NCBI GenBank assembly: GCA_938743325.2
Contig: OW568866.1
Span: forward strand, 496,001 to 560,000
Length of the DNA: 64,000 bases
DNA from: Pycnococcus provasolii
Taxonomy: Eukaryota > Chlorophyta > Pseudoscourfieldiophyceae > Pseudoscourfieldiales > Pycnococcaceae
Reading direction: 5' to 3'
Numbering within the stretch: position 1 is the stretch's first letter; each line of letters begins with the position of its first letter. Positions 1,021-59,126 of this stretch are shown piece by piece. The position numbers and the translations under genes are program-made. Under the pieces are notes generated by a model. The model saw nothing but the letters and a program-made list of their open reading frames with translations. It was not told the DNA's origin and did no database searches.

Positions 1021-1052
1021 TTAGGGTTAGGGTTAGGGTTAGGGCATTAGGG
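1021..1052 (+). promoter_or_regulatory. TTAGGG array upstream of the KNL1-like gene
   Basis: Four perfect tandem TTAGGG units (1021-1044) followed by CATTAGGG. It lies about 250 bases before the ATG at 1302, with TTAGGG on the coding strand. The same arrangement precedes many genes in this window, so a promoter or 5'UTR role is inferred. Confidence 0.6.
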
Positions 1053-1301
1053 TTGTTGTTGTTGACATTTTTTTGCGTTTCTTAATTTTTCTGGATGGAG
1101 GGAGTTTAGTTTTGGTTTCCCCTTTCTTTCCCTCCCCCCAGTCCCCTGACTTTTTTCCATGGATTTGACAGCTCCCCTGCCCCCTCCCCTGCCCTGCCCT
1201 GCCCTGCCCGGCCTGCTTCGCCCCCTCCCTCAGCCTGTTCACGGCTGGTCATTCTCACAGGCTCGACGCTCTGGCTCGCTCATCTTCTCGTCTCCTTTCC
1301 T

Positions 1302-2981
1302 ATGGCTTCTCCTGCTCCTGCTCCTTTGTCTCCTGCTCCTGCTCCTGCTTTGTCTCCTGCTGCAGCGGTTATGACGACTTCGATTTCGGCTTTGGAAGAT
1401 AAGGAGAATCTTGTGGGGGATGGTGACATGAATCTCGGGTTAGCGGTGACTTCGGTGGATGATGGGTCTTTGCCGTTGGGTCCCTCTGAAAACCATATGA
1501 TGATGAATATGGCCAATGACAACACGAATGTCACCGCCACCGTGACAATGCCCGCGAAACGACTCTCGTTCGGTGACGTCTCCCTGCACGCACCGCCGTC
1601 GAAAACGTCGCAGTGGGCTGCTAACCAAGAAAAAGGTGGCGCGGGAATAGGACCTGCGGCGTTCAGGGAGGCGCTCAAGGAGTGCAACGAAGCGCAGGGC
1701 AGATTCACGAAGATGCAGGAGGTCGCGACGGAACAGTGCGAGGGTGCCAGCGAAGCGGATGTCGAGTACCTCAAGGCGCAGGTCTCGAAGCAGAAGGGCG
1801 AATTCGTCAACGTCGACGTCAAGTACCGCTTCCTGCAGAGCCTCGCGGCGGGCGACATCACAACCGCACCTCCCACCGCCGCGGAGTCGCGTGAAGTGAA
1901 CGCAGAACTCGCGCGCGTCAGCGAGGAAGTGCGACGCCTCAAGAAGCTCAACGCTGCGGCGAAAGAGGAGGCGACGAACCTGATCGACTCTGTCGCGGAC
2001 GGCGTGTCGACGTACGAAACGCAGGCGGCGCAGCTGCAGGCGGACCTCGACGCGCTCGAGCAGGAGATTGCAGAGCAGGAGCTCTGCGGGGACAACGATG
2101 ACACCGAGGAGGACATGGGAGTGGACGAGGAGGACGAGGCGGTTGCCGCAGAGCTGCGCGCGGAGGAAGAGGAAGCTAGGAACCTTGAATCTCAGATGGC
2201 AACGGCGCGCTCGGAGGCACGCGAGCTGCAGGCGGCGGTGCTACCGCTCGAGGGCGAGGTGGCGATGCTCCGTGCACGAGCGCGAACGACGAATGCAGCA
2301 ACAGGGCGCAACCGAGCTGCCACCGCGGCAAGCGAGCGCGCCGTTGCGGACACTGCATGGCTGCGCAGTCATGCCGCGCTCCTAGAGGCGCTCGGCGGCG
2401 TGCAGCTGCAGCGCGTGGACGAGGACGTGCTTCACGTTCGCATGGCCACGGTCGTCCCAGATGCCGCGGGACCGCGCACGGTGGAGCACGAGCTTGCCAT
2501 CTTCCTCTCGCCAGGTCAGACGAGCCTGAATCGCATCGTGCTGGAGCCGAGCGACGTGCCCGTGTCCGACCTTGCCGCGGAGTACGAGGGCAGCGCCAGG
2601 CTCGCCAACATGCTCCGCGAGGTGAGACAGCGCATCGCAAGCTTCCACGTTCGCAATTCTCTGCTCACAAGCGCCGCGGAGGAGCGTGGCGGCGCGATGC
2701 TCATCTCTGAAGCAATCAGCGGACATGCGATTCCGTATCCTCTGCAAGCCGGCGTCGAAGGTGCTCAGGCTGTCATGCACGTTCCCGTCGACTGGCCGCA
2801 ACCAGGCACGACGCTCGGCCTCGTGCGCGTCGACGGTGTACCGATGGAGGTGTCGAGCGCGGTGTGCGACGCGATGAACGCAAATGCTGCGATATGTGAG
2901 AGCGGCGTGCCCGCATTCCTTGCGGCTGTTGAAGAGGCTGTGGCTGCTGTCACGGCAGCGGCAGTGAATGTCGAGGGATGA
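1302..2981 (+). CDS. Coiled-coil protein with RWD-like C-terminus; candidate KNL1/Spc105 kinetochore scaffold
   Basis: A 559-residue intronless protein. The N-terminus is Ala/Pro-rich, with a KEN box (residues 34-36, in DKENLVGD) and the motif KRLSFGDVS (86-94). That motif closely resembles the RVSF protein-phosphatase-1 docking site of KNL1. A long coiled coil (about 110-350) with an acidic insert (DDTEEDMGVDEEDE) follows. Residues 355-450 alternate strands and end in a helix, as in the RWD domains of kinetochore proteins (KNL1, Spc24/25, Csm1). Known KNL1 proteins combine an N-terminal PP1 site, a coiled coil and C-terminal RWD domains, so the order fits. No clear MELT repeats are seen and the protein is short for KNL1. 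Spc25 or another coiled-coil/RWD protein remains possible. Confidence 0.45.
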   Translation: MASPAPAPLSPAPAPALSPAAAVMTTSISALEDKENLVGDGDMNLGLAVTSVDDGSLPLGPSENHMMMNMANDNTNVTATVTMPAKRLSFGDVSLHAPPSKTSQWAANQEKGGAGIGPAAFREALKECNEAQGRFTKMQEVATEQCEGASEADVEYLKAQVSKQKGEFVNVDVKYRFLQSLAAGDITTAPPTAAESREVNAELARVSEEVRRLKKLNAAAKEEATNLIDSVADGVSTYETQAAQLQADLDALEQEIAEQELCGDNDDTEEDMGVDEEDEAVAAELRAEEEEARNLESQMATARSEARELQAAVLPLEGEVAMLRARARTTNAATGRNRAATAASERAVADTAWLRSHAALLEALGGVQLQRVDEDVLHVRMATVVPDAAGPRTVEHELAIFLSPGQTSLNRIVLEPSDVPVSDLAAEYEGSARLANMLREVRQRIASFHVRNSLLTSAAEERGGAMLISEAISGHAIPYPLQAGVEGAQAVMHVPVDWPQPGTTLGLVRVDGVPMEVSSAVCDAMNANAAICESGVPAFLAAVEEAVAAVTAAAVNVEG

Positions 2982-3050
2982 TTTTTTTGTGGGTCAGCAC
3001 AAGTTTTTGAATTGAAAAAAAGATCAAAAAATAAATCACATCATAAAATA

Positions 3051-3055
3051 TTACA
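3051..3055 (-). terminator. TGTAA poly(A) signal of the 3117-3893 gene
   Basis: TTACA on the plus strand, read TGTAA on the coding strand, about 65 bases after the stop codon. Confidence 0.5.
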
Positions 3056-3116
3056 AGCTATGGTCACACGTCGGTCCAATCCACCAATTCCAGGCGCCCG
3101 CATTCGAACCCACCGT

Positions 3117-3893: not shown

Positions 3894-4102
3894 GGCGCAA
3901 GAGGGAGAGAGAAGCAAAACCACACAGCAAGCAAGTCACGGCTACAGTATGCGGCCGCGCACGGAAGGGGACGGAAGGGGAAGGGGAAAGGGGAAGAGGA
4001 AGGGAAGGGAAGGGAAGGGACGCAGCCACGATATTGCAAGGTTACCACCCCCGACCACCTCCCCCGAGGCCCCGACCCGGTAAAGGAGGTGGGATGCGGG
4101 CG

Positions 4103-4140
4103 CTAACCCTAACCCTAAACTTTTTAACCCTAACCCTAAC
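4103..4140 (-). promoter_or_regulatory. TTAGGG-type array upstream of the 3117-3893 gene
   Basis: Two short CCCTAA clusters separated by a T-rich spacer on the plus strand, which read TTAGGG on the minus (coding) strand. They lie about 210 bases before the ATG at 3893. Confidence 0.55.
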
Positions 4141-4260
4141 GCTGTGGGGGGAAAGAACGAAACCGTATTAATCCATGGCATCAGGGCAGGGAATCATTCT
4201 TGTTTCCTTACGTAAGCGTGTGATTTGGCAACGTACTGTATGTATACTACGATAGTCTGT

Positions 4261-5095: not shown

Positions 5096-5200
5096 GGCAC
5101 GGCACAGCATATTGATGTGATGGACGGGATCTTCTGAGAAAATGAGAAGAATGATCCACAACAAGGGGAAAAAAGGGGCGACGCAAGCCACACACAAAGA

Positions 5201-5232
5201 ACCCGAACCCTAACCCGAACCCTAAACCCTAA
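5201..5232 (-). promoter_or_regulatory. TTAGGG-type array upstream of the PDI-like gene
   Basis: Degenerate CCCGAA/CCCTAA units on the plus strand, which read TTAGGG/TTCGGG on the coding strand, about 106 bases before the ATG at 5095. Confidence 0.55.
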
Positions 5233-5573: not shown

Positions 5574-5578
5574 TTACA
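5574..5578 (-). terminator. TGTAA poly(A) signal of the NTF2-like gene
   Basis: TGTAA on the coding strand about 20 bases after the stop codon. Confidence 0.55.
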
Positions 5579-12974: not shown

Positions 12975-13062
12975 GATCCGGCTATTCTTCGGCGTTTTGT
13001 TGCTGAGATCAGTGAACTTAGTTCTGCCAAAGGTGCGGATAGCGTTCGAGAAAGGCGGAGTG

Positions 13063-13090
13063 CCCTAACCCTAACCCTAACCCAAACCCC
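13063..13090 (-). promoter_or_regulatory. TTAGGG-type array
   Basis: CCCTAA units on the plus strand. By the orientation rule seen elsewhere it should serve a minus-strand gene starting near 12974. Relative to the plus-strand LRR gene at 13469 it is in the opposite orientation. Confidence 0.45.
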
Positions 13091-13468
13091 AGCAAATCGA
13101 CGTGGACGTCGACGTCGCCACCAGGTGGCGGGAGCAGGTCGTCGTCGTCGTGCACGAACGGCACGGGCATATGAACGGCGTCGTTGTCGGGAGATGATGG
13201 GATGGAGCAGGTCGACAGGTCGTCCTCGTCACCACCACTGGGAATTGATTTGGGGGTTTGGATGTTTTTTTTTCCGTCGTTTCTGCCACCAAGAACCCCA
13301 AACCCGATCTCCAATTTTTGCAATAAAAATTGATTTTTCGTTTCTTCCAACAAGATCTCTCCCTCCGACCAATCCATCGGAAGCTTCAGACCTTTTTCAA
13401 TCAAAGGCTTAGAAGAGCTTCACATCACGAGTTCCGACACGTGCACCATTCTATCTTTTCATCCGTCC
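13091..13468. other. Intergenic region before the LRR gene
   Basis: About 380 bases. A minus-strand ORF at 13018-13404 is open but Asp/Pro-rich and runs through the TTAGGG-type array, so it is not accepted as a gene. Nothing else is seen. Confidence 0.35.
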
Positions 13469-16930: not shown

Positions 16931-17044
16931 ACGAACCAACCTTAAGGGCCTTAAGGGAGCGCGATCGATCACACGGGACGGGGAAAGATGGGAAGATTGG
17001 TGTGTGTGGGTGAAGAGGTGAGGTGGTAAGGCCCGGGGAGGAGG

Positions 17045-17071
17045 TAACCCTAGCCGTAACCCTAACCCTAA
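17045..17071 (-). promoter_or_regulatory. TTAGGG-type array upstream of the GT29 gene
   Basis: Four CCCTAA-like units on the plus strand, reading TTAGGG on the coding strand, about 115 bases before the ATG at 16930. Confidence 0.6.
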
Positions 17072-17931
17072 TCGATTCCCCTTCACCTTAAGCTTTTCCA
17101 TCGTAGTCCTAGTGGTAACTTAAATGACTTTATGTGCTCGCAACGAAGGGATATCCCCCGTCTGCCCGTGAGCTACACAACGAGAGGGCTGGTAAAATTA
17201 AGGCGTCCCACGGAAATAATGACGGAAGTACGCCCTCAACCAGACAACCAACCAGGTCGACCAAATTCCACGACCATCCATTCTTGACTCGACCTAAATA
17301 TTCTTGACTCGACCATGCAAGACCATGCATTCATAAAGGTAAACTTAACTTAAACTTAGTTCTTACAGTGGACTACAGTATTTCATTCATGCAAGACGTT
17401 CGCGAGACCTGTTCGCGAGCCTCTGAGGTTTTCGCGAGCAATGCAATAGTTTGGTAATGCCTCGATGAGCAAAGAGATCGATGATTGGAGATGATCTTCG
17501 GCCATCGGAACTCGGAACTCGGAAACGTTGCTGAAACGAACTGAACGTCGATCATGGCCCATCATCGTCCGTCGATCATCATCCAGGAATGAGTTATGAG
17601 TTCGTTCTCGAGCTTCTCGGCCGACTTTACCAAACTACCCTAGTCTATGTATTCTGATATTCTCGAGAGGTCCGGACAAAAGAAAACGTCGAGCTGTACT
17701 GTAACTTTAACGAGCTGTGCATGCAGAGTTAAGTTTTAATTCGTCCACGCCGGAGAGGTCTCAGGAGGGGGGGGTCCCAGCCGCCCAGACAGACGTTCGT
17801 GGACGTTTCCCCTTCATCATACTTACTGTACAACTTTCCACTTTCCACTGGCTTGTCGCTCTTAACAGACTGATTCTCGTCTTCTTGTCAAGTTAATTAC
17901 TGCGGCCAGTGCTCCACAACAAAATCAATCA
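17072..17931. other. Intergenic region with short direct repeats
   Basis: About 860 bases without a gene. ATTCTTGACTCGACC occurs at 17280-17294 and 17300-17314 (period 20). TTCGCGAG occurs three times (17399, 17412, 17431). ACTACAGTA lies near 17370. No RNA gene was recognised. Confidence 0.45.
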
Positions 17932-22097: not shown

Positions 22098-22320
22098 AGT
22101 ACACGAGGGATGCGAAATGAAGCGTAACTTATTACCACTACAGGTATGATGGCGGCGTGAACTAAAGATAAAAAGTATGACGTAATACTTATCCCCGTGG
22201 CTAAGTGTGTATAAGTGTGATAAGTGGGATAAGTGCGTGGATACGTAAACTGGAAAGAAAACAGAAAAAAAGGGAACCCCGAACCACCAAACCCCGAATG
22301 AAACCCCTTGGTGTTGGGAA
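22098..22320. other. Intergenic region between two divergent genes
   Basis: Contains short repeats of GATAAGTG/GTATAAGTGTG around 22190-22235. No gene is seen. Confidence 0.4.
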
Positions 22321-22357
22321 TTGGGGGTTTGGGATTGGGGGTTTGGGATTGGGGGTT
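22321..22357 (+). promoter_or_regulatory. G-rich repeat upstream of RED
   Basis: Two and a half copies of TTGGGGGTTTGGGA on the coding strand, about 184 bases before the ATG. It resembles the TTAGGG arrays of other genes but with longer G runs, and could form a G-quadruplex. Confidence 0.5.
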
Positions 22358-22540
22358 TATTAGGATTTTTTCGTTTTTTCGATTTTTTCTGTTCTGTTCT
22401 TTCTGGGAGGGAGAATCACCTGGGGGAATCTGTCTCACTATTTCGCGTCGGCGTCGGCGGCGGCGGCGGCGTCAGCAGCGGCAGCGTCAGCAGCGTCAGC
22501 AGCAGCACTGCTCCTAGTCTCCTATCGTAGTTCTCGGACT

Positions 22541-31028: not shown

Positions 31029-31137
31029 CGTTCCAGGTTGAGAAAATGACAATAATGTGGGTCGGGTGAACAACAACAACCAACAAAAACCCTCGAGGAG
31101 ACGAGGAGGAGGAGAACCTCAGAACCCTAGTCGCCGC

Positions 31138-31203
31138 TAACCCTAACCGCTAAAACCCTAACTGCTAACCACTAACCCTAACCGGCTAACCCTAACCCTA
31201 AGT
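31138..31203 (-). promoter_or_regulatory. TTAGGG-type array between NDUFA3-like and the 31291 gene
   Basis: Five to six CCCTAA-like units in 66 bases on the plus strand. Read on the minus strand it gives TTAGGG about 110 bases before the NDUFA3-like ATG. It also sits 88 bases before the plus-strand gene at 31291 in the opposite orientation, so it may be a shared divergent promoter. Confidence 0.55.
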
Positions 31204-31290
31204 CTTATTAGCTTGGCGACTCCTCTGACCTCGTGGAATCTTCTCTCCACCGCACACCCTCCTACAAGTAGCTAGGGGATATCTCACAAT

Positions 31291-34832: not shown

Positions 34833-37800
34833 TCAAAACTTGTCCACCGCGTTGAGAGCCCTGCCTAAATTGTAGGTGTACGAATCGGGATAGCTGCCCT
34901 TGACGATCCTTGTCGTCTCAATCTGCTGCCTCTGCGTGTCGTTGTTGGGTGTCACGCGATTTGGCTGTCGGTTCAGAATCTCTCTCTGTGCGTCGTTTAT
35001 ACGCATCGGTGGCTGGTACGGGAACTCGATATCCTTGAATGTCTTTGCCATGGCGGCATCCAGATTCCTCGAGTACGGCGAGTAGATGTCGTACGGCTGC
35101 AGGATCGCGTGCGCATTTCGCACTGCCCACTCTTCACGAGACTTGGGAACGAGGTTGCGGAACACGCTCACGCGCGTCGTTGTGGGCCTCTTGTCCTTTT
35201 TCGAGTACTCGTGCGTCAGCGTGACGTAGTAAGAGGTCTTGTCCAAGTTCTCGCTGTGAAGCTCGAACATGGGCGCCTTGCCTCGACGTTTCTCGTTCGT
35301 CACGTCGCGTGCACCAGCTGCAAGCAGAGCCGTCTCCATGGCATGGTCGTGCAACATCCGCTGTTTGTTTGCAACCATCTCGGCAATCGAATACAGCTCT
35401 GCGTCAGAATGCTTCCCGTACGGGTAGCGGAACTCGCACATCGGCTTAGGCACGGCATTCCGAATCACATCATGGGCAATTGCCATATCCGTGTCAGGGT
35501 TGAAATTCTTTGCAAATGTCTGCAAGAATGCATCCCGAACCGTCATCTCCGGGGACCTCCACCCAGCCACGGGCGAGTGCGAGTTGATGTACGACACGAG
35601 GCTATGGTCGAAAATGCACGAAAACGAGTCGTCAGCCATCTTCTCAGCTTGGTACGATCCAACTGGGGCACCGGGATGCAAATTGATGCTCGTATACGCA
35701 GGTCCGCCGTAGCACGCCGTGCGATTCCTGAAATGAGCAACCATCTTCCCGCGGAATGCCACAGAGTCGTTGTTGCGAAGCGATTCAAAAGCCTGGTTAA
35801 ATCGACTGTGCTGCTTGAGGATGTCTGACTGGTGCGGTGACCTCATCTCGGCTCCAACTCGCTTAATAGGAAGAGCAAAACGACTCATCGCCGTTAACTC
35901 ATCCTCGAGGTGCATCTTGTCACCAAGCAGGCTCGCGAGCTGGTTCACTATGTTGTCGGATTCTTCCGCACCCTGCCTCGTCGCGGCAGCCGCGGCGGCA
36001 AAAGGCCAACCAGCTTGCACGTGCGATGCCATAGCCTCGCCGCGAGATTCATGCATCGCGGAAGAAAGCAAGGGCGTGTTCCATGGATCACTCGACTTTG
36101 CCGCTTCCAGAATAAGGCGCTGCACGACGGGCGATCTCTGGAAAGCGGACGGATCCTCCGAATCCGCGGCACAGTAGTACCCGTCCTCCCACAGAGATTC
36201 GCTCATAATATCACGCTTCTTCCTGAGCGACGCGACAAGGTGTTTTTTCGCAAGCTTCTCCTCCTCCTTTAGCCGTTGCAGCTCAGGATCCAGCGCTTTG
36301 TACCGGAACGCAAGCTTCCGAGGCTGAGATTTGTCGTCGCTAGCGCTATTCTCCGGCATTTCAAACATTTCGAATGCCCAAGATGTATTTGGCGACGACG
36401 AGTCTCCGCGGAGGAACGATGCAATGTCGTTCGGTCTCGGGTTGCTCTCGCGTTGCTCGGCATACTCGTCAGCGAACGCCTGCTCCTCCGGCGTCAGCAT
36501 GCCACGCACGCCGTCGCAGCCTCGGGATGCATGTGCACGCGAAAGCTCGCGAACGCGCGCAAGCGCTTTCGAGTCCACGTCGATAGCTCTCTCGAGCTCC
36601 TGTCGTGCATCCGCAGGTATAGAGGCGGCGTCTGCCACCGCAAGGCTCTCGCGTGCCTGGGCCACTCTTCCCTCGAGCGCACATTCCACCGCCTTCACGG
36701 CGTGCTTCGCGAAAGATGCACGGAGCGTGCTCCAGCTCTCGTCAGCGCCCGGAAACGTGAGATCCAAACTCTTAACCTCCATGGGCGTGTCCGAGATGTT
36801 GGGAACATGTCGAGCAAGTGCTTGCCTGGTCGCGTCGACGTTCGCTCGGTCCACCACGGTCAGCACGTCCCTGTCTTTCATCTCACCCAGCGTTCGCAGC
36901 GTCGTCTCCCCGTTCTCAGCCAGAAACGACTCTCGGATAGCGGCAAGTTTTGACGCATACTCCTCGGCGGATTTCGGTCCGAGTCTCACGGGGATTTGCA
37001 GCTGTGCAGACTTCTCGCGGAATACAGCATCGAGACTCTCCAGACGCTCAACCAGGACGTCTTTCTCCTTCTTGGAATAGACGCGGCAGATAGGAAAGTC
37101 GAAATATTCGGATTCCGAAGCCAACGCCGCATCTGCAGCGCGCATAAGGTTCGCGTACTCCTTTTCGACATCACCTCCTTTCTCCTCGAAGGTGAAACCC
37201 AAGCCAGGCTCCAACGCCGTCTTACCAGTTTCCTTGAGATGTTCGACGGCACGGTTGAGCAGATATTCATCTTCTTCGCCTTTGAATAGAGAATTGCGCT
37301 CGAGAAAGTGAAGCAGCTGGTCGTAAAAAAGCTTTTGAGCCTTCTCCCTGGTGTCTGAAGGCGACCACATCTCCATGCGTGGGTCATAACCAAGGACATT
37401 GTACCGCGCGAACAGCGAGGAGAAAAGCGGCTCCTCCGACTGTACAAGCCGACGATTGGCGATCTCGTCTTCGTAGATCGCGTTGGCGTCTATAGGCTTG
37501 ATCTTGGTCTCACCCTCAGTCTTGTCTTCGCCCATCGCCTTCTGTGCACTCGCTTCCTCGATAGAACGCAGCGGCGCCAGAATCTCGTTGGGAAGATCCG
37601 TCTGCTCGCCCATAGGCCTTTCTTCGACACTCTTGTCGACACGCGAGGCGTTGCCAAGTAGGCGCATGGCCATCATGAACTCGCTCACCTTCAGTGCTGG
37701 ATTCTCCACGACGGGGTCGAATGCGACATCTGGAAAGATACCGTACAGGGCGCGCGCGGCTTTGAATGCCGGCAAACTAACACCCGCGGAGTCCATGAAG

Positions 37801-40800
37801 CGTGGCGGCATTCCTCCAGGCGACTCGAGGCCCTGCACAATCTCTGGTATGCCATAGCTCCATAGCGCATAGCCCCACGGCGTGCGATCGATGATATTTG
37901 AAGAGTCGTACAGCGTGTCAAGTCGAGTCGGGAAGACGTCAGCCTTGTACACGGGTAGCGGATACACATTGTCACGCCTGATCGCACGTCCCTTTTCGTC
38001 CTTGGGCCAGAGCACATCCATCGCTGGATCCAACGGCGGAATCGCGGAATATGCCGTGAGACGTGCAGCGTCACCCTTCTCCTCGGCTCGGTCAATTTCA
38101 TCCGAATCGAGCTCCAGCGCCTCGCGCGTAAAGCGGTGCTTGCGACCCTCCGCTTCGAGCACTACTCGCCACGGGCGAATCGCTCTGCTCGCCGCACTCA
38201 TCCATCGGCGCAGGAAAAACGGCTTCTTCTTTTTCTTGCGATCACTGTTCAGCTTCACCTTCAGTCGTTCCATCGGTGTGCGAGGCATGGTTGTCAGGCT
38301 CGTGTGAGCTCGCAGCTTCATCTCCCACAGACGCTTGCGACGGATGCCGTTCAAGACGAGCGACGATGCGCTCGGTGCCTCGCTCATTGAAAATGTCGAA
38401 GCGTTGAAGCCGTAGTAGTTCGAGTTCGCAAATCCCCTCAGCTGATCACGCGAGGCGGAGCTTGCTATCTGATCGGTACGTGAGGTGATGCGAAGCAAGA
38501 AAGGTGCATCGCTCTGCTGGCCCGCCCGATTCGCTTCGTCGTCAATCGAAAGAGGTGCACGCATCGGAAAGAATTCCACTTCGTCCGGTGGCACAGACCA
38601 GTGTGAAGCAAGAGCCGGCGATGACGAGTACGGACCTTTCTGCGATCCCTTCCCGCGAGCCTTTCGCATGTTGATCGCATCGCGCTCGTCCCATCGAATG
38701 CTTTCGTCCTTATTGCCCATTGACACGAAGATACGAGCACCGGGTGCTGTCGAATTGAATCGCGGATCTGCCGCGAGTGGCTTGCGATCGAGAAGGTGGG
38801 ACCAATAGCGAGATAGCATATTGCTCTGCTCCGAACTCCCTTCGGCGAACGGCACACCCTCGTCAGACTTGCTCACAGCCGCATACTGCGATTCGATGCG
38901 CGCCTTCCTATTCGGAGCGGCGGCGGCGGCGGAGAAAATCGACGCGGCAAAGCGGCGACGCAAACAGAGCAGAGACTGCTCGAGAATGCCTTCAGTGCGG
39001 AACAGCTTTTTGAGGAAAGGAATGTTTGTGCTCGGCTCCCTCTTAGCCGCATCGACCTTCATCTTCAATTCTGTGGCAGAGGTTAGCAGCAGAGCCCGCG
39101 CCAGCGATGGGCTCATCTCCGGCACCTCAGCAAGATGCACCGTTTTTGCCTCACCTTCTGCATTCGTGCTCGTCCTAACGTCTATCGCAAGCGTGTTGCG
39201 CGCTGTGCATGTCGCCATGAATACTGTCCCTGGGACGACGGTCAGCTTGTCGAGGTCGGGAAAGATCTTTGGCTTTTCTTCCTTGTAGATGATTTCCTCT
39301 TCATCGTCCCATGGGAAGTCATCAATCGACGTAATTTCCGTGTCGACCTTGTATCTCTCCGTCTCCTCCTTATGCGCAGCCTCAGGGTCAAGTGACTGAC
39401 GCCGCTCGCGGGCGTACGCTTCCCGATCCAGTTGCTCGCGCCTTCCAGTCAGGTCTGGTTCGGGAACTATCGCCAGGCGTCTCTTGTCCTCCGCTGTCAA
39501 TTTTTTGGTGGGCTTGTCAAACAAAGTTCGAGCATTATTGTTGACGGCGACTGATTTCGAACGAGCCGCCTTTTCTCGCTCGACGACAGATGCCTTGGAC
39601 ATCTTGTACATTGCCTCCATCTCCTTCTCGCCAAGCTCGTCGAATTTATCGTAGTCCAGTGTTGTGCGATCTCGAACCCTCTTGCCGTGAGTATCGACAA
39701 TCATTCTGGCTTTCCTGTCGTCGATTGATTCATGAAGTTGTTCCTGTGCCGCAATCTCTGGCATCGGATCATTCACGATGTCCGTGCTTGGTTTCTTTCC
39801 GAGCAACATCTTTGCCTCAAAGCGTGCCTTATGCTCAGCTTCATCCTTCAGCTTACGCAGCTTGAAAGTGCGCACAGATTCTAGCATGCGCTCTACCATT
39901 TTGTCGAGCTTCGCCTGCCCCGTCGCGGTGGGAATGTGTGGAAGGCTCATGTACTCGATATCATCGAGGCGCGTGCGAGGGTCGTTCAATTTCTCCAGGT
40001 CAATGTAGTCTCTCTTGGGGTGCCTGAACTGCTTGTTGCCCGGGATAGCCTTCGGGAGATTATCCTCCGCCATCTCCGGCGGGTCGTTCGGCCAGATGGA
40101 TTCCCAAATTTTGGACTTCCATCTTTCGAGGAAGGGCTCGTCATGAACCACGGGAAACGAAGTTCCGCGACCTGTTTTGAGGAATCCGTTCACGGGGCTC
40201 ACGGCCTCCGGATCTGTCGCGGCAAAGGATAACTGGTGGCGCATCTCGCGGAGCGCGGTGTGCGACGCACCGCCCGTCTCGAGAACGTCCAGGAACGAGT
40301 TCACGACGTCCTTGTAGAGGAGTGCTCTCCGCGGCGCGAACAAGAATTGCGGCTGGAGGTGATTGACATGTTCCGCCGCCTCCTCGAGAATCTTGTGCCC
40401 GAATCGATGAGAGGTTATGGGATGCGACGTGCGCTCGTAGTCAAGCAAGTAGCCGCGAATCACGTTCCGGGGATAGCCACGCTCCTCCAGCTTCTTCTCG
40501 ATCGCCCTCGTTGACTCCTCATCGCGCTTCCTGCGCGACGTCTCCAACGCGTTCAGCAGCGAGCGCGAGCTGGCTGACGCCCCACCGTCGCCGAGAAATC
40601 CCAGATCCATCACCGATTGTGACGTGCCATCGCCACGACTCTTATCGTGCCTTGGCGGTGGTGGGAGGTAGATCATATCCTCCGCCGCGGCGCTGTAGTA
40701 CGGCGACCACTTCGGCCCCATGAGAGCTCGCACGGCATTGGGTCGAATGTTCACGCCAACCTCGAAGTCGACCCACGAGCCACCTCCGTGCGCAAACAGG

Positions 40801-42467
40801 AACCTATCCACGTTGTAGTGCTTCGGATGCTCGGCGAGATTGTACTCCACGTCGCGCCGGGACTTGAGCGGCAGAAGCTCGTATGGGTTGGTAACGACTT
40901 GCACAGCGCGCCGTTTCATCGATTTGGGAAGCAGTTTGACGTGTGCTGCCGTCTGCCCAACCTTGCACGATGCAGCTGCTTCGTACTTGCACTCGTCAGC
41001 CTCGCTCTCGGTGAGCGGGATTGTAACATTCTTGTCCGGGTACATGTCGTACGTATTCCTGTCCTTACGCTTCTCACCTGCCGTGCGAGGATCGTACTTC
41101 TCTGTTGGATGGCCAACGACAGGCCTCCTCTCGATGTTGTGCTTGGTAGATTTGCGCACGATCTGCTCCCACGTCTTGACTCCAAGTTTGCGCTGTTGCT
41201 CGCCGAACGGGAATCGCATGGCAATACGATAGTCGCGAGTTTCCGGATCCAGCTCCTCCGTGGGTAGGGTGGTAGAGGATGATGCGGCTTGCTGATTTTG
41301 CTCGTGTTCCTCGCATCGTTTTTGGTAGGCTGCGTCTGGCTCGTTGGCGAATCGCTGCGGATACGGGTCAATCTGCGTTGGCGCCGGCGTCTTCGGGTCG
41401 TCGTACATCTTATACACCGACGACGGCGGGTTTGCGGGATGTCCTTGTGGCTTGGCCAATTCGGTCCAGTGCCTCATATTCGCGCGCACGCCCTTACTTC
41501 CAGTGTTCCTTTCGCCAACCACGGTTTCTGTGTTGTACGTTGTGAAGCTGGGATGGTCGGAGTCGGCTCCTCTCATGGTGCGTCGTCCAAGCTCGCGGTG
41601 CTTGAAGTGTGGCCCTTCGTCGACCGGCGACACTTTCAGCTTAGACTCTTCCTCAGCTTCCTTTGCTTCTTCCGCCATGCGCAGTTCCTCCAAGACTCTC
41701 GCCTGCTTTCTCATTTCGCGGAACTCCTCGCGCGACATCGTGGTGCCTGGAGGGAGCGGTTCGTCGTCGTCTTCGTCGGACGACGACGAGTCGTCGTCAA
41801 AGTCCGGGTCATTTTCGAACTCCGCCTTTTCTTCCTCTCGCAGACGTTTCGTCTGTTCTCTGGATTCTCGAATCTCGCGTGCGAAAGCAAGTCTTCGCGC
41901 CTCCTTGTCAGCGTCTAGGTTGAAGAGGTTTGTCGCGATACCGCTCCCTCCCCCTGTCTGTGAGGAGGTTGCATAGTTGGTCTGAACGACGGGGGCTGCT
42001 GCTGCTGCGGCGGCGGCAGTCTGCCTCGACGACTGCGTGCTCGGTACGTTGTCGTCGTCTGAGTCGTCGTCGTCCGAGTCAGATGCGTTGGCGGCGGCGT
42101 TTGCAGCAGCAGCTGCTGCAGCAGGCGGCGGAGAAGGTTGAGCAGAAGAAGGTCGCGAAACCTGCTGAGTTGCCGAGTCAGGGGTGTCGTCATCCGATTC
42201 TCCGTCGTCTTCCGAGTCGTCTTCCGAGTCGGAGTCACCCCCCGCTGCTGCGATATCCCCTAAAGGTATCACAGACACATGCCTGTGTGCCTGCTGCATG
42301 TTTCCATGATTCCGAACTTGGGCGACTAAAGACCCGGAAGATTCCGACTCCTCCTCCAACGAGGAGAAGACTCCTGGAAGGTTGGAGTCATCTTCCTCCA
42401 ACGACGCCGAGGGCGACGACGACGAGGCGGAGGAAAGCAAAGGCAAAGACGGACGCCACCAAGGCAT
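34833..42467 (-). CDS. Giant intronless orphan protein, 2,544 residues
   Basis: From the ATG at 42467 (MPWWRPSLPLLSSASSS) one frame stays open for 7.6 kb. The first 250 residues are disordered: Ser/Asp/Glu runs, poly-Ala and a poly-acid patch (DDDSSSSDEDDDEPLPPG). The remaining 2,300 are hydrophilic, evenly mixed, Lys/Arg/Glu-rich, and read as genuine globular or helical protein, for example FRHPKRDYIDLEKLNDPRTR, PDLDKLTVVPGTVFMATCTA and VDFEVGVNIRPNAVRALMGP. No membrane segments, repeats, ATPase, kinase or helicase motifs were found. Codon choice and base composition resemble its neighbours. I cannot assign a family. The gene is 12% of the window. Confidence 0.8.
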   Translation of the reverse strand: MPWWRPSLPLLSSASSSSPSASLEEDDSNLPGVFSSLEEESESSGSLVAQVRNHGNMQQAHRHVSVIPLGDIAAAGGDSDSEDDSEDDGESDDDTPDSATQQVSRPSSAQPSPPPAAAAAAANAAANASDSDDDDSDDDNVPSTQSSRQTAAAAAAAAPVVQTNYATSSQTGGGSGIATNLFNLDADKEARRLAFAREIRESREQTKRLREEEKAEFENDPDFDDDSSSSDEDDDEPLPPGTTMSREEFREMRKQARVLEELRMAEEAKEAEEESKLKVSPVDEGPHFKHRELGRRTMRGADSDHPSFTTYNTETVVGERNTGSKGVRANMRHWTELAKPQGHPANPPSSVYKMYDDPKTPAPTQIDPYPQRFANEPDAAYQKRCEEHEQNQQAASSSTTLPTEELDPETRDYRIAMRFPFGEQQRKLGVKTWEQIVRKSTKHNIERRPVVGHPTEKYDPRTAGEKRKDRNTYDMYPDKNVTIPLTESEADECKYEAAASCKVGQTAAHVKLLPKSMKRRAVQVVTNPYELLPLKSRRDVEYNLAEHPKHYNVDRFLFAHGGGSWVDFEVGVNIRPNAVRALMGPKWSPYYSAAAEDMIYLPPPPRHDKSRGDGTSQSVMDLGFLGDGGASASSRSLLNALETSRRKRDEESTRAIEKKLEERGYPRNVIRGYLLDYERTSHPITSHRFGHKILEEAAEHVNHLQPQFLFAPRRALLYKDVVNSFLDVLETGGASHTALREMRHQLSFAATDPEAVSPVNGFLKTGRGTSFPVVHDEPFLERWKSKIWESIWPNDPPEMAEDNLPKAIPGNKQFRHPKRDYIDLEKLNDPRTRLDDIEYMSLPHIPTATGQAKLDKMVERMLESVRTFKLRKLKDEAEHKARFEAKMLLGKKPSTDIVNDPMPEIAAQEQLHESIDDRKARMIVDTHGKRVRDRTTLDYDKFDELGEKEMEAMYKMSKASVVEREKAARSKSVAVNNNARTLFDKPTKKLTAEDKRRLAIVPEPDLTGRREQLDREAYARERRQSLDPEAAHKEETERYKVDTEITSIDDFPWDDEEEIIYKEEKPKIFPDLDKLTVVPGTVFMATCTARNTLAIDVRTSTNAEGEAKTVHLAEVPEMSPSLARALLLTSATELKMKVDAAKREPSTNIPFLKKLFRTEGILEQSLLCLRRRFAASIFSAAAAAPNRKARIESQYAAVSKSDEGVPFAEGSSEQSNMLSRYWSHLLDRKPLAADPRFNSTAPGARIFVSMGNKDESIRWDERDAINMRKARGKGSQKGPYSSSPALASHWSVPPDEVEFFPMRAPLSIDDEANRAGQQSDAPFLLRITSRTDQIASSASRDQLRGFANSNYYGFNASTFSMSEAPSASSLVLNGIRRKRLWEMKLRAHTSLTTMPRTPMERLKVKLNSDRKKKKKPFFLRRWMSAASRAIRPWRVVLEAEGRKHRFTREALELDSDEIDRAEEKGDAARLTAYSAIPPLDPAMDVLWPKDEKGRAIRRDNVYPLPVYKADVFPTRLDTLYDSSNIIDRTPWGYALWSYGIPEIVQGLESPGGMPPRFMDSAGVSLPAFKAARALYGIFPDVAFDPVVENPALKVSEFMMAMRLLGNASRVDKSVEERPMGEQTDLPNEILAPLRSIEEASAQKAMGEDKTEGETKIKPIDANAIYEDEIANRRLVQSEEPLFSSLFARYNVLGYDPRMEMWSPSDTREKAQKLFYDQLLHFLERNSLFKGEEDEYLLNRAVEHLKETGKTALEPGLGFTFEEKGGDVEKEYANLMRAADAALASESEYFDFPICRVYSKKEKDVLVERLESLDAVFREKSAQLQIPVRLGPKSAEEYASKLAAIRESFLAENGETTLRTLGEMKDRDVLTVVDRANVDATRQALARHVPNISDTPMEVKSLDLTFPGADESWSTLRASFAKHAVKAVECALEGRVAQARESLAVADAASIPADARQELERAIDVDSKALARVRELSRAHASRGCDGVRGMLTPEEQAFADEYAEQRESNPRPNDIASFLRGDSSSPNTSWAFEMFEMPENSASDDKSQPRKLAFRYKALDPELQRLKEEEKLAKKHLVASLRKKRDIMSESLWEDGYYCAADSEDPSAFQRSPVVQRLILEAAKSSDPWNTPLLSSAMHESRGEAMASHVQAGWPFAAAAAATRQGAEESDNIVNQLASLLGDKMHLEDELTAMSRFALPIKRVGAEMRSPHQSDILKQHSRFNQAFESLRNNDSVAFRGKMVAHFRNRTACYGGPAYTSINLHPGAPVGSYQAEKMADDSFSCIFDHSLVSYINSHSPVAGWRSPEMTVRDAFLQTFAKNFNPDTDMAIAHDVIRNAVPKPMCEFRYPYGKHSDAELYSIAEMVANKQRMLHDHAMETALLAAGARDVTNEKRRGKAPMFELHSENLDKTSYYVTLTHEYSKKDKRPTTTRVSVFRNLVPKSREEWAVRNAHAILQPYDIYSPYSRNLDAAMAKTFKDIEFPYQPPMRINDAQREILNRQPNRVTPNNDTQRQQIETTRIVKGSYPDSYTYNLGRALNAVDKF

Positions 42468-50118: not shown

Positions 50119-50141
50119 AAACCCTAACCCCGTAACCCTAG
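50119..50141 (-). promoter_or_regulatory. TTAGGG-type array upstream of PPH1
   Basis: Two CCCTAA/CCCTAG units separated by CCCGTAA on the plus strand, reading TTAGGG on the PPH1 coding strand about 154 bases before its ATG. It is also 130 bases before the plus-strand gene at 50271, in the opposite orientation. Confidence 0.5.
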
Positions 50142-50918: not shown

Positions 50919-53549
50919 CTATCTACCGAGCGCGCCTTTCAACTTCGCCAAGGCTGCTGCTTGAGCTGACGCGGCGGAGGAGGCTGCGCCTGGTGCGTTC
51001 GCTGAAGGCTGCGGCGGAGGCGATTCAGAGGGAGGTGGTTGCTGGGCAGAGACGGAAGGAGCTTCCAGCGCAGCAGACTCTTGTGGGAAAGGAGCTGTCC
51101 CCACCGCTGCTGTCGGAGCCGTCGTCCCCACCGCCGCCGCCGTCGCCGCCGCCGCCGCCGCCGCTCCTCGTTCCCATTTCGGGTTGCCAAGGAGCGCGGC
51201 AATCAACTCGTCCTCAGTCAGATTGTCCTCAATGCTTCTCACGACAGCTCGAAACACGCTCTCGTGATTCGCACGCATCTTGTCCGTGCGACTTCTCATG
51301 TACGCCCACGCGCGCACTCCCGTGTCGTAGTAGCACTCGATGACCGCTCTGCGACAAATCGACTCGAAGCACTCCGCCACCAGCTGACGGGATGTCGTCA
51401 GACGCGCATCAGGCACGGGCACGCTCTCACCGCCCCCTCCCATCACGAAGAGGCGGCATGTGTTCACCGCGCTACCGAGCGCTACCACCTGCTCATTGCT
51501 GAGCGGCTGTGTGAAATCTATTGCCTCGATGATCTGCTGCAGCGAGGGATCTAGCGGAGGCATTTCCACCTCGAAGTCGACGCTGTTCTCGTGAGCAGGC
51601 TTCCACTTCAGAATCGTCTGCGTCGACCCGCGCACGTACGCCGCAGCCCAGTCCTGCAGCACCACGCCGTCGTGCTTGTGGCTCAGATTGCGCATGATGT
51701 TGTCGAACAGCTTGCGAACCCGGCTCGCGGGGAAGAAATCCTTCAAGCGCACCTTGAACGGCTCGCGCTCGTGGTGATACCACAGTGGAATTTTCTTTTC
51801 GTGCAGGGCCCTTTCCATGGTGTCCCTCTCCTCCTTTTTCGGGTTGAGCACGAGCTTTCCCGCAAGCTTGTAGCGCTTAGCGAACGGCTCGCCGCAGAGC
51901 GAATTGTGTCCCTCCGACATCATATCGTACACGAGATAGCGGCGCATCATCACGCCCTGACTCCTGTCCACGTCGTTGATCATCTCGCCGTCCAGCAGGA
52001 CTCCGTCATGACACTGCCCCTTGCGAAGTGGTGGGACGGGGAAGCGCATCTGCAGTCGTCGCATCTCAAACTTGCGATTCATCACGTACACGCCCCACTT
52101 CGAGATGTACAGCATGTAACGCGTGCCATCCGCCTTCCACGTGACGTAGTATGAGTGCAATTCGCACCGTGCATCGCTTGCATTCTGCACGACGCCATCC
52201 TCGTTCACCGGCGGACTCGCGAGCACAACCTCGCGCAAGTTTGCCCTGTCGAGGCTAATCGGCTGGGCTCCAGGAAATGCGCTCGGCCCTAGTCTCTCCG
52301 TGAGACTGCGTGGCTTGCCCTCGATAAGCCGCCATATCTCTCGACGCACGTACTCTTCCTCGTTCGCGTCCACAACCTCGCCTAAGCTGTCGAGGTTGTC
52401 GTGGGCAAGCTCTCTCTTACGCACCTCAAAATTTGGGTCGTCGAGACGCACCGTCGAGCCGCTCGACGTTGGCACGGGCGGCATCACGTCGTCGCTGGTT
52501 GGTGCATTCGCTGCGTCGTCTTCCGCAGGCTCGGGCCAGCGTGGCGACGCGCACGCCGGCGCACCGCCGCCAAAGGGAACGTGGCGAGGACTTGCCGGCG
52601 CGGACGGACCAGACTCTTCGTCGTCCCTTCTCTTCCACGCAGGTCGCTCGCACGGCGGCAGCGATGTCGAGCGCCGTTCGTAGCAGTTGTCGAAGATTGC
52701 CGCAACGTACGCTGGCTTGTATATTCCTGGCGACCGGATTCCACGAAAGTGCACGATGGCTTCCTTTGGACGAAGCTGCCCCATGCTCATTCGCATGAAG
52801 TAGTTGACAATCATGGTACCCGTTCGATTGAACCCGTGCGTGCAGTGCACAAGAACGTAACGCGGCGCAGGTGCAGGCGGAGGTGGTGCGTCCGGAGGAA
52901 GTAGCATCCTGGCATGTCTGTGTTCCTCGGCGACACGAATCTGGTCACGCATCTGGAACTCTTGGACGTAGAAGCAAAACGCCGAGATGGCCTCCGGGCT
53001 TGGGCACTCGTCTCGTCCGACGCAAGGCACACGAACGCGTTCCACGCCAAGGTTGCTGAATTCCTGCGGGTTGTAGTAGCGGCTTGAGTTCGTCAGGTCG
53101 ATGACAAGTCCGAGCTGTCTTCCAGCCATTCTCTGTCGTTCGACAGCCATCTGAGGCGTGTATCTGTTGGTGTCCGGGTCCTGCAGGCTGGCGTCGTACT
53201 GCAAACCGAGCGGCACTTTGGATGGAATGAGGCTCCCCCACGGCTCACCAGCGGGTGGACATGCCTCCCACCCGTCAGGCACGGCTAATCTGAGCGCATT
53301 AATCTGTGGCAAAGTGTTTAAAGCTGCGGCACGCACGCCAGCCGCTTGACTTTTCTGCCTTTTCGCAGGTCGACCATCTGCGCCCCCCATCGCGCCGTCA
53401 ACAGACGAGATATGAGAAGGCCCCAAAGACTCAGGAGGCGTGAACTGAGACGCGGCTGCAGCAGCAACTCTTTGCTGCTCCTGCTCGACAAGCCGCGCCT
53501 GCATCTGCGCCTTGCGACGCGCGCGCTCCTCCTGAAGGCGCGCAGCCAT
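50919..53549 (-). CDS. Bifunctional mRNA capping enzyme (RNA triphosphatase + guanylyltransferase)
   Basis: From the ATG at 53549 (MAARLQEERARRKAQMQ) the product is 876 residues. After a coiled N-terminus the Cys-phosphatase-type RNA triphosphatase domain ends with the P-loop HCTHGFNRTGTM (about 235). An acidic linker follows. The guanylyltransferase domain starts near 425, with the catalytic Lys in YVTWKADGTRYML (about 470). Later come DGVLLDGEMIND, KHDGVVLQDW and ILKWKPAHENSVDFEV (nucleotidyltransferase motifs III, IV and V). An OB-fold part and an Ala/Pro-rich tail complete it. It caps nascent mRNA in the nucleus, removing the gamma phosphate and adding GMP. The fused Cys-type layout is that of plants and animals, unlike the metal-dependent triphosphatase of fungi and many protists. 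Confidence 0.92.
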   Translation of the reverse strand: MAARLQEERARRKAQMQARLVEQEQQRVAAAAASQFTPPESLGPSHISSVDGAMGGADGRPAKRQKSQAAGVRAAALNTLPQINALRLAVPDGWEACPPAGEPWGSLIPSKVPLGLQYDASLQDPDTNRYTPQMAVERQRMAGRQLGLVIDLTNSSRYYNPQEFSNLGVERVRVPCVGRDECPSPEAISAFCFYVQEFQMRDQIRVAEEHRHARMLLPPDAPPPPAPAPRYVLVHCTHGFNRTGTMIVNYFMRMSMGQLRPKEAIVHFRGIRSPGIYKPAYVAAIFDNCYERRSTSLPPCERPAWKRRDDEESGPSAPASPRHVPFGGGAPACASPRWPEPAEDDAANAPTSDDVMPPVPTSSGSTVRLDDPNFEVRKRELAHDNLDSLGEVVDANEEEYVRREIWRLIEGKPRSLTERLGPSAFPGAQPISLDRANLREVVLASPPVNEDGVVQNASDARCELHSYYVTWKADGTRYMLYISKWGVYVMNRKFEMRRLQMRFPVPPLRKGQCHDGVLLDGEMINDVDRSQGVMMRRYLVYDMMSEGHNSLCGEPFAKRYKLAGKLVLNPKKEERDTMERALHEKKIPLWYHHEREPFKVRLKDFFPASRVRKLFDNIMRNLSHKHDGVVLQDWAAAYVRGSTQTILKWKPAHENSVDFEVEMPPLDPSLQQIIEAIDFTQPLSNEQVVALGSAVNTCRLFVMGGGGESVPVPDARLTTSRQLVAECFESICRRAVIECYYDTGVRAWAYMRSRTDKMRANHESVFRAVVRSIEDNLTEDELIAALLGNPKWERGAAAAAAATAAAVGTTAPTAAVGTAPFPQESAALEAPSVSAQQPPPSESPPPQPSANAPGAASSAASAQAAALAKLKGALGR

Positions 53550-53650: not shown

Positions 53651-53680
53651 AAACCCGAACCCGAACCCAAAAACCCTAAA
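53651..53680 (-). promoter_or_regulatory. TTAGGG-type array upstream of the capping enzyme
   Basis: CCCGAA, CCCGAA and CCCTAAA units on the plus strand, reading TTTAGGG...TTCGGG on the coding strand, about 102 bases before the ATG at 53549. It also lies about 113 bases before the plus-strand EDRF1-like gene in the opposite orientation. Confidence 0.5.
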
Positions 53681-56831: not shown

Positions 56832-57185
56832 CTTTACCTCGATAGAAATTTTGTCTTGTTTTCTTCTTTAAATGTAAATCATTTTGTTTTGTTGTACTCT
56901 AAGTAATCATCCTTGTCTGCACATGCATACTCTAGGTAAAGTAGTAAGTGTGACTTTTCAGTCATCGTGTTGATATGCACGGTTGGTGGCGATGGTGACG
57001 ACAACAACGACAACAAGCGCAGGTGGAGCTCTCACGCCGGACGCATACGAAAAGCGGCCTGTATCGTAGCTTCGAAATCACCACCAGCGCCATGTACAAT
57101 CATGCTGCTGAATGGTGAACGTGAATGGTGTGAATGGACGACCGTTGGACAAGGTAAAGTACGTTCAATTACTGAATGAGCGATC
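56832..57185. other. Intergenic region between convergent genes
   Basis: About 350 bases: the 3' flank of the EDRF1-like gene with its TGTAA signal, then a CAACAACGACAACAA tract near 57000. No gene is seen. Confidence 0.4.
56873..56877 (+). terminator. TGTAA poly(A) signal of the EDRF1-like gene
   Basis: TGTAA about 42 bases after the stop codon, in an AT-rich stretch. Confidence 0.55.
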
Positions 57186-58759
57186 TTAGTCTGCATTCTC
57201 CTGTTGCAGAAGCATCTCGCATGCAAATCCAGCGAGCGGCGCGGCTAGCACAAGCCCCCACGGTCCGTGGAAGACGTGCTCCGCCGCGACGAGTGCCGAC
57301 AGCACGACAATGGGATGCACGTCGAGACTACTCGCGTATATTACAGGATTCAGCAAGTACGCCTCGACGATGTGCACTAGGATCACCATGAGAATGACGA
57401 GCGCAACATTCGTCCTGTATTTAGTGTGTTAGGTTGTTAGTGATTGTTTTTTTATTTTTCTTTTGTGTGTGTGTGTTTTGGTGGTTAGAGGTAGACTTAC
57501 CAACCAGCTGTCAGCAACGCCACGATGCCGATGGGAACGGTCGAAAGCACGACGCCAGCCACTGGAATGAAAGAACATGCGAAGACGATCGCGTTCAATG
57601 GAATCAAGTACGGCACCTTCAGCAGAGCACAGCCGGCGGCGGTGAGTGCGGTGTTAACGATTGCAATTTGCAGTTGTGCGCCTAGGCTTCGCTCGATGAG
57701 ATTGCCCAGTCGTGCGATTTTAGGCGCCGTTTCTCGGTACACCCATCCAACAAGCCTGCTTCGCGAGAGTCGCTGTACCGCAATACTCGGTCGAGGTGCC
57801 TGAAAGCTCCACAGAAATCCAATCACGAATCCGGCAATAAGCTGCAATGTGGCCTTTGCCATGCCCACAGTAAGCGCGGGCAGCTTCTGCGCGACAGCCG
57901 GACCCTTTTCTGCGATTTTGTCGGCGATGGAACGTCGCATTGCCTCGCTTTGCACGTTCGCGTTCGCGAGAATGGCGTCGACGTCAGTCGTTTGCAGTTG
58001 CGTTACCGAGTCCACAGCCGCCACGACGTGCGGTGCGCTGAGCGTCGTGGCCACGGCTGTGACAATGGCTGTGATGGCGAAGAAGACGCACACGCCAATC
58101 TGCCGCCGTCGCACGGCGGGCGGCGTCGCGCCCTTGGAGTCGTTCCCGACGAGCATCTTGGCGGGAGTTGTTTGTTCGAAGGACCGCGCGAATCCCATGG
58201 CAAGTCTACTTGTGACGAACGCGGAGGCGAGGCACACACCGAGCGGCGAGAGCTTAAGCACGAGCGCGGCAACAATCGTCCACGCGACGAATCCACTCCA
58301 CGGCCAGCTCATAACTTTCTGTGCGAGTTGGTCGACGTGTCGTTCACCGGCGGCGACGCTTGTAGGTGTCTCGTCAATATTGTCGTGTGTTTGCGCCGAA
58401 ACTTCTGCCGCAGATGCCTCTGCCGAAACTTGCGACGACGACGTTGCTGCGACAGCGACACCACCACCCCCATATTTGTGACTCCCATTCGTATTCCTAT
58501 TCATGATTATGCTGGCATAACGACGTGCATATCGTCGTCCACCACCACCACCACCTCCACCTCCAACTAAGGAGGGTATCACCACACCTTTATTAACCAC
58601 GGGGATCCCAATCCCCAGATACATGCCAGCTGAGGAAGCCCGGCCTAGGAGCTGTAACCTAACAGTGGGAGGATTTCTACTATTCCTTGGAGCACTACTG
58701 CAACACCAAGAAGACACCTTGGAACGACCCATAGATGCAGAATGAGAAGGAGACGCCAT
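57186..58759 (-). CDS. AI-2E/UPF0118-family membrane transporter, probably plastid-targeted (two exons)
   Basis: Exon 1 is 58759-57501 and exon 2 is 57414-57186, joined across an 86-base intron (GGTTG|GTAAGT ... TACAG) inside a Trp codon. The product is 495 residues from the ATG at 58759; an ATG at 58771 is also possible. The first 60 residues (MASPSHSASMGRSKVSSW) are transit-peptide-like. Hydrophobic segments include GFVAWTIVAALVLKLSPLGV, GVCVFFAITAIVTAVATTL and ATLQLIAGFVIGFLWSF. The family signature lies across the splice: VFACSFIPVAGVVLSTVPIG, then HIVEAYLLNPVIYASSLDVH and PIVVLSALVAAEHVFHGPWG, like the HQ.E.y.lnP and hP..v..all.gg..fG..G motifs. Bacterial members export AI-2 or exchange Na+/H+; the algal substrate is unknown. 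Confidence 0.82.
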
Positions 58760-58804
58760 ACCACCACCCATGGGACTAATGCGGAAATGAACCGAGGGGC
58801 CCAC

Positions 58805-58968
58805 GAACTAAGAAATAAACGCCGAGAAAGAGGGAGGGAGGGGCCGGGGAGGAGAGGGAGGGAGAGGATAAGGAGGTTTTTTGACAACGGACATCCTACC
58901 ACGGTACTACGAGTCCGACTTGGGGGCAGTAGGAGGTAAAGGGGGGAAGGAGGCTGGCAGGAGGGCAT
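58805..58968. other. Intergenic flank
   Basis: GA-rich and G-rich sequence with no gene, leading into the TTAGGG array. Confidence 0.4.
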
Positions 58969-59126
58969 TATTAGGGCATTAGGGTTAGGGTTAGGCCATT
59001 ATTCTTAGGGCATTCTTAGGGCATTCTTAGGGCATTATTATTAGGGCATTATTCTTAGGGCATTATATTAGGGCATTAGGGTTAGGGCATTAGGGTTAGG
59101 GCATTAGGGTTAGGGCATTAGGGTTA
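58969..59126 (+). promoter_or_regulatory. Large TTAGGG/CATTAGGG array upstream of the gamma-CA-like gene
   Basis: The longest array in the window. It has some fifteen TTAGGG units in 158 bases, mostly as GCATTAGGGTTAGG and GCATTCTTAGG variants, all on the coding strand. It ends about 150 bases before the ATG at 59278. The mixed higher-order units show local duplication rather than addition by telomerase. Confidence 0.7.

Follow-up and report, generated by a model that had tools for sequence, protein, structure and literature searches.

The window considered here is a stretch of 64,000 nucleotides from the green alga Pycnococcus provasolii (Chlorophyta, class Pseudoscourfieldiophyceae), in which arrays of the hexamer TTAGGG stand a short distance upstream of the start codons of several genes, among them those for a GT29 protein and a hexapeptide-repeat protein. 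The hexamer is found at 50 places in the window, where shuffles predict 11.25, and the tandem pair TTAGGGTTAGGG, with at most one mismatch, is found 23 times, against 0.06 expected. An earlier reading of this DNA, made from the letters alone (the sequence-only reading), had listed eight telomere-like arrays; six of them are true arrays, the elements before the PP2C and capping-enzyme genes contain one exact TTAGGG each among variant units, and the array near the LRR gene had been left out of the list. The six true arrays occupy 1021-1052 and 58971-59123 on the plus strand and 4107-4139, 5208-5232, 17060-17071 and 31141-31201 on the minus strand, and the one left out occupies 13063-13089, with bounds that differ slightly from those of Table 1. 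The distances between arrays and start codons (249, 213, 97, 129, 154, 102 and 155 bp) agree with the earlier ones within about 15 bases, and at three genes they become longer by about 70 bases if the later ATGs favoured by the coding score are used. Genome-wide counts refer to 32.33 Mb of sequence in 46 contigs (C1 etc.).

The published assembly of P. provasolii CCAP190/2 is described as 32.2 Mb long, with 44 chromosomes in addition to the mitochondrial and plastid genomes and with telomeres at both ends of 36 of the 44 chromosomes (PMC11130579). Among 20 contig ends examined here, 13 carry a CCCTAA/TTAGGG array at the end or within 100 bases of it, with 34-71 units per 3 kb and, in one case, a mixture with CCCTAAA; a further four have a telomere array within 567 bases and three have none. 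These terminal arrays identify TTAGGG as the telomere repeat of P. provasolii, and the unit of the promoter arrays is identical to it. The plant-type triple (TTTAGGG)3 is present at 20 places in the genome. At the start of C14 TTTAGGG and TTAGGG units are mixed, and a pure TTTAGGG run lies at C7:539-594, 0.5 kb from the chromosome end; they may be what is left of an earlier TTTAGGG telomere. TTTAGGG is described as the likely ancestral telomere unit of green algae in a source that reports TTAGGG telomeres for Auxenochlorella and uses "interstitial" there with regard to loss of heterozygosity (PMC12633428); for Chloropicon, telomeres of the TTTAGG type are reported, and the available portion of that source mentions neither TTAGGG nor "interstitial" (PMC12301720).

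The exact triple (TTAGGG)3 is found at 5,217 places genome-wide (2,626 + 2,591), a figure that includes chromosome ends and in which several places may fall in one array, and the same letters in reversed order are found at two (0 + 2). A sample of 264 kb, made up of the window and 200 kb from chromosome C1, contains 30 telomere-like clusters, defined as 18 bases with no more than three mismatches; scaled up from this density, which is an extrapolation, about 3,700 clusters would be present in 32 Mb. Triple-repeat loci of the telomere hexamer number 17 in the non-coding part of the sample, against two at most for every other hexamer class; this difference, together with the 5,217 places against two for the reversed letters, rules out a generic microsatellite. 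The exact arrays of the sample, 31 in total, consist of 2-13 units each; 28 of them have 2-6 units, 18 have only two or three, the longest has 13, and the arrays vary from pure to degenerate. The spacing of units in degenerate arrays was discarded as a sign of constraint, since the clusters had been chosen by that spacing. Two apparently duplicated promoter regions, C1:498246-498551 and C3:67928-68235, both contain long mixed TTAGGG/CCCTAA arrays.

The position of the arrays relative to genes was analysed on coding segments called by a dicodon score, for which long frames from the same DNA served as training set. None of the 30 clusters lies inside a coding segment, where 21.5 would be expected under circular shift (coding DNA makes up 71% of the sample), and 26 of them lie upstream of a coding 5' edge at no more than 400 bp, against 5.2 expected; the concentration persists when clusters are placed at random within non-coding DNA only (18.5 expected, P=0.005). 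The setting is divergent for 18 clusters, tandem for 10 and convergent for two; among non-coding positions, 12.0 divergent placements (P=0.02) and 3.7 convergent ones would be expected, so that the convergent deficit by itself is not significant. Seen from the genes, a cluster is present in the 400 bp upstream of 24 of the 92 called genes and in the 400 bp past the stop codon of four (Fisher P=5e-5), and any TTAGGG is found in the same upstream interval of 34; the median distance between array and ATG is 112 bp for the 17 arrays with clear starts. The sequence-only reading would have been undermined if strand bias and positional peak had been absent, or if genes and the gaps between convergent genes had held arrays just as often; with 0/30 clusters in coding segments and 2/30 between convergent ones, the distribution is of a different kind.

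Table 1. Telomere-like arrays and a G-rich repeat in the window (window positions), and domain matches of a candidate array-binding gene on contig C37.
Feature	Coordinates	Strand	Setting or details
Array, 5 exact TTAGGG	1021-1052	+	249 bp before ATG 1302 (+); coding score favours ATG 1371
Array, 4 exact units in two blocks	4103-4140	-	213 bp before ATG 3893 (-); coding score favours ATG 3824
Array, 3 exact TTAGGG plus TTCGGG units	5199-5232	-	about 97 bp before ATG 5110 (-)
Array, 3 exact units	13060-13093	-	nearest strong start on opposite strand: LRR protein, ATG 13469 (+), 388 bp
Array, 2 exact units plus TTACGG/CTAGGG	17044-17075	-	115-129 bp before ATG 16930 (-), GT29 (sialyltransferase-like) gene
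Degenerate array, 5 exact units	31137-31207	-	112 bp from the sense ATG
Degenerate element: CTAGGG, TTACGG, one TTAGGG	50122-50141	-	about 155 bp before ATG 49965 (-), PP2C gene; coding score favours later ATG 49893
Degenerate element: one TTAGGG, TTTGGG, two TTCGGG	53651-53679	-	102 bp before ATG 53549 (-), mRNA-capping enzyme
Array with 16 exact units and GGGCATTA-type spacers, the longest in the window	58969-59129	+	upstream of hexapeptide-repeat protein gene, about 155 bp from ATG 59278 (+)
G-rich 14-bp repeat TTGGGATTGGGGGT, 3.1 copies	22314-22358	+	183 bp before ATG 22541, RED-like gene
Myb match	C37:387953-388108		41.1 bits; VDLKDKW at 388079
Linker-histone match PF00538	C37:388280-388468		42.7 bits; strand and frame as Myb match, offset 327 bases

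The genes that follow the window arrays (Table 1) are documented to different degrees. The capping enzyme (50919-53549, minus strand) has 99% identity, with 873 identical residues, to an NCBI protein of P. provasolii from another assembly, and the two starts agree; its upstream element also faces a divergent gene at 53793, whose EDRF1_N match is slightly under the cut-off. The start of the GT29 gene is supported by a database protein of 721 residues that begins at 16930, after the array. The GT29 frame stays open across the array up to ATG 17101 (LGLGLRLGL...); an N-terminal extension encoded by the telomere repeat is formally possible, and the database protein starts at 16930 instead. The product of the gene at ATG 5110, which we take to be PDI-like by eye from a motif, has a start resembling a signal peptide. 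In the longest array TTAGGG alternates with its spacers, and its CATTAGGG unit recurs at 1045-1052; this array also lies about 200 bp from ATG 58771 of a divergent minus-strand gene. The G-rich repeat that had been presented as a relative of the arrays does precede the RED-like gene; its relatedness is only possible, as the unit is not TTAGGG. At 34833-42467 the minus strand also contains a reading frame open for 2,544 codons; it scores well as coding sequence and matches no Pfam family at E 0.001.

The strict orientation proposed by the sequence-only reading, with TTAGGG in every case on the coding strand of its gene, does not hold. Within the window, the sense ATG near the array at 31137-31207 begins a frame of 54 codons that lacks coding signal, and a well-supported same-strand gene is therefore missing for this array; the array at 13060-13093 has no clear sense gene, a weak sense open reading frame beginning 88 bp away, and the one-strand rule rests partly on which partner is chosen at divergent promoters. 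In the 264-kb sample, 17 arrays with clear starts could be listed by hand from the 31 exact ones, the other 14 being divergent or ambiguous and left out, and 13 of the 17 are sense and 4 antisense, the clear antisense ones being situated beyond the window; among those left out in the C1 block, the arrays at 20840, 118434 and 168921 lean antisense and those at 118391 and 187521 lean sense. When each cluster is assigned to the closest 5' edge no more than 400 bp away, sense outnumbers antisense by 19 to 7 (P=0.029), and between -400 and 0 of 93 called genes TTAGGG occurs 73 times in sense and 39 times in antisense.

For a genome-wide estimate the context ATGGCG was used as a proxy for gene starts, with sense arrays before the reversed codon CGCCAT as control; this six-base context was controlled with sense arrays only. 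In the interval 61-121 bp before ATGGCG there are 374 occurrences of the exact pair TTAGGGTTAGGG and 212 of its complement CCCTAACCCTAA, compared with 194 in the sense-array control. Counted as distinct arrays on C1-C6, 64 sense and 42 antisense arrays (P=0.04) are found, with 25 in the control. The weaker five-base context ATGGC gives 509 sense and 345 antisense places in total (controls, 388 and 316) and, as distinct arrays on C1-C4, 57 and 48 (controls, 36 and 42). Arrays ending in a fixed base provide 12 sense and 16 antisense ends, a sample too small to be used, in which the few ATGGC matches are more often antisense. All counts combined, about 70% of the arrays are sense-oriented. An orientation preference is reported also for the telo-box core motif of Arabidopsis, in the 50 bp upstream (PMC4778318).

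The distribution of ATG triplets gives an indication of where transcription begins. Upstream of 62 well-scored genes, out-of-frame ATGs occur at 14 per kb between -300 and -200, at 3-5 per kb between -150 and -30 and at 7 per kb between -30 and -3, and permuted triplets (7.6-12.4 per kb) have no such drop; this pattern suggests 5' leaders of about 150 nt. As the depletion starts at about -150 and the arrays have a median distance of 112 bp from the ATG, they are probably located near the transcription start. The 13 leaders that follow sense arrays contain three ATGs in 1,742 nt and have a C+T content of 0.52-0.73; in these few genes, sense arrays are probably placed where transcription starts or in the first part of the leader. 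The four leaders after antisense arrays contain seven ATGs in 464 nt, and because of these ATGs antisense arrays may lie upstream of the transcription start. The 6-mers enriched before 93 called genes are chiefly CT-rich words, such as CCCCTC, present in 31 promoters and, on the other strand, in 16; they correspond to the pyrimidine-rich leader. No second type of array was found among the 40 enriched 6-mers listed for these upstream regions.

Candidate array-binding proteins were searched genome-wide with a degenerate codon pattern for VD(L/V/I/M/F)KDKW, which we take to be the telobox of telomere-binding Myb domains. Three exact places were found, all VDLKDKW, and two more with one mismatch, against none in the control; the three exact sites fall within three of 80 Myb-domain matches. 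One of these, on C37, is followed by a linker-histone match (Table 1), and each of the two matches reports an open frame of 419 residues, by all signs one and the same frame; as predicted from its domains, the gene has the architecture of the TRB proteins, Myb and then GH1/H5 in one protein. On C22, three further PF00538 matches are found in about 18 kb (163745-182150), two with equal scores and one with an internal stop.

It appears reasonably probable, judging from sequence evidence, that the arrays are promoter-proximal elements of the telo-box type, formed by tandem copies of the alga's own telomere unit and read by a telobox-Myb protein, and they are best read as a tandem version of the telo-box/TRB promoter system of plants. 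This interpretation builds on what is observed directly, namely the position before gene starts, the absence from coding segments, the sense excess of about 70%, the identity with the telomere unit and the presence of telobox-Myb genes, one of them in TRB order. The Myb/TRF-like promoter or 5' untranslated region (5'UTR) element imagined by the sequence-only reading is sustained by position, coding absence, the divergent excess (18/30) and the telobox-Myb genes, with an orientation that is prevalent and not strict. In the proposed mechanism, a telobox-Myb protein (the TRB-like one and/or the other two) would bind the double-stranded arrays, several molecules on each, and would keep the promoter free of nucleosomes and recruit chromatin or transcription factors. 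Human and yeast telomere repeats are reported to disfavour nucleosomes in yeast (PMC3919577). Binding would work in either orientation, like that of yeast Tbf1, and the sense excess would reflect a second constraint near the start site, for example keeping the G-rich strand as the non-template one.

Several observations weigh against this interpretation. Gene starts derive from codon statistics, with two of them verified against other data, and the C37 frame is known from its domain matches alone. As many as 68 of the 92 called genes lack an upstream cluster, so the arrays are not a universal core promoter. Of the seven ATGs in the antisense leaders, five belong to one gene; for all 17 leaders together ATG has a density of 4.6 per kb, compared with 10.9 in the DNA preceding the arrays, and permuted triplets give 8.2 and 12.5. 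Antisense arrays before ATGGCG are only moderately more numerous than the sense-array control (42 against 25, P=0.05, on C1-C6), and in the ATGGC context they have no clear excess (48 against 42, on C1-C4). Finally, in TRB mutants of a moss, highly transcribed genes are reported to be richer in telo boxes (PMC12616469), so that the effect of the arrays on transcription may be positive or negative.

The main rival is insertion by telomerase or break repair, which would place telomere units where open promoter chromatin is broken and leave by-products with little or no function, with selection clearing them from coding DNA and with the orientation bias deriving from the strand that forms free 3' ends or R-loops. 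A model of this kind was proposed for the plant telo boxes (PMC3022908), and it would account for arrays that go from pure to degenerate, have 2-13 exact units and match the current telomere unit; the absence from coding segments is expected under either explanation. What speaks against it is the upstream concentration that persists within non-coding DNA, an excess that is only moderate (26 against 18.5) and that could also arise if promoters broke preferentially. On balance we consider insertion without function rather unlikely; moreover, insertion and promoter function are compatible, as units once deposited could then be retained.

The sense bias, together with the low ATG density after sense arrays compared with antisense ones (three in 1,742 nt against seven in 464 nt), as if sense arrays were in the leader, also fits an element acting as RNA or as a G-quadruplex: an array transcribed in the 5'UTR as UUAGGG or as a G-quadruplex, or a non-template G-quadruplex promoting R-loops. 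Four of the 17 clear promoters, however, carry antisense arrays, and with two or three units, 18 of the 31 exact arrays fall short of the four tracts of an intramolecular quadruplex unless variants are included; an action of this type appears improbable. The excess between divergent segments (18/30 against 12.0) would be consistent also with elements for replication origins, recombination or insulation that happen to fall between the genes of a compact genome. Such elements do not predict a sense bias or a concentration near start codons, and no support for a replication or insulator role turned up in an analysis that included no direct test aimed at it; we regard this explanation as highly improbable.

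Telo-box-type promoter elements read by a telobox-Myb protein would tie chromosome-end DNA to gene regulation genome-wide in a free-living green alga, and P. provasolii offers a compact genome suited to probing telomeric repeats at promoters. The arrays bear on the possibility that telomerase seeds regulatory DNA, because the arrays repeat the present telomere unit TTAGGG and not the likely ancestral TTTAGGG. A more tentative proposal, which we hold to be possible and somewhat doubtful, is that the TRB/telo-box promoter system predates the split between chlorophytes and streptophytes and that in Pycnococcus it expanded into tandem arrays at about a quarter of the promoters, with a unit that followed the telomere from TTTAGGG to TTAGGG. 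In that case the telomere, the telomere-binding protein and thousands of promoters would be locked together, and a change in the telomerase template or in the Myb protein would have had to be matched genome-wide, for example by telomerase writing promoter elements.

In the open-licence PMC literature, the titles and abstract starts among the matches listed include no paper on promoter arrays of telomere repeats in algae, and the closest systems are known from other organisms. The plant telo box (AAACCCTA), a short interstitial telomere motif, resembles the Pycnococcus arrays in that its unit is the telomere repeat of the host and it is found in the 5' flanks of genes; in plant translation genes most telo boxes are reported between -50 and +50 of the transcription start (PMC3022908). 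However, a telo box corresponds to about 1.2 units (PMC10167121), and two of them are reported in 146 of 1,472 Arabidopsis telo-box genes (PMC4778318), whereas in Pycnococcus the elements are mostly tandem TTAGGG arrays and the host is a chlorophyte. The C37 gene has the same domain order as the plant TRB proteins. The origin of TRBs has been placed within Streptophyta, in Klebsormidiophyceae and later in Chlorokybophyceae (PMC10167121, PMC12616469), and a closer look at Chlorophyta has been called for (PMC12616469); the Pycnococcus frame, known by its domain matches, lies in a chlorophyte and points, at the level of domains, to a TRB-like protein beyond the streptophytes. In Saccharomyces cerevisiae, the promoter sites of Tbf1 are likewise TTAGGG clusters upstream of genes, bound without rules of orientation or spacing (PMC2834713), and in Pycnococcus orientation, with about 70% sense arrays, is biased and not strict; Tbf1, however, is a fungal protein, and the telomeres of S. 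cerevisiae are of the TG1-3 type (PMC3919577), whereas in Pycnococcus promoter and telomere share one unit. Short internal TTAGGG arrays are described also as interstitial telomeric sequences of animals (PMC6410037), unlike which those of Pycnococcus are concentrated at the 5' side of genes and biased in orientation. The arrays of P. provasolii are real, genome-wide and promoter-proximal, and they belong to the telo-box kind, being new in that they are tandem, occur in a chlorophyte and have an orientation bias.

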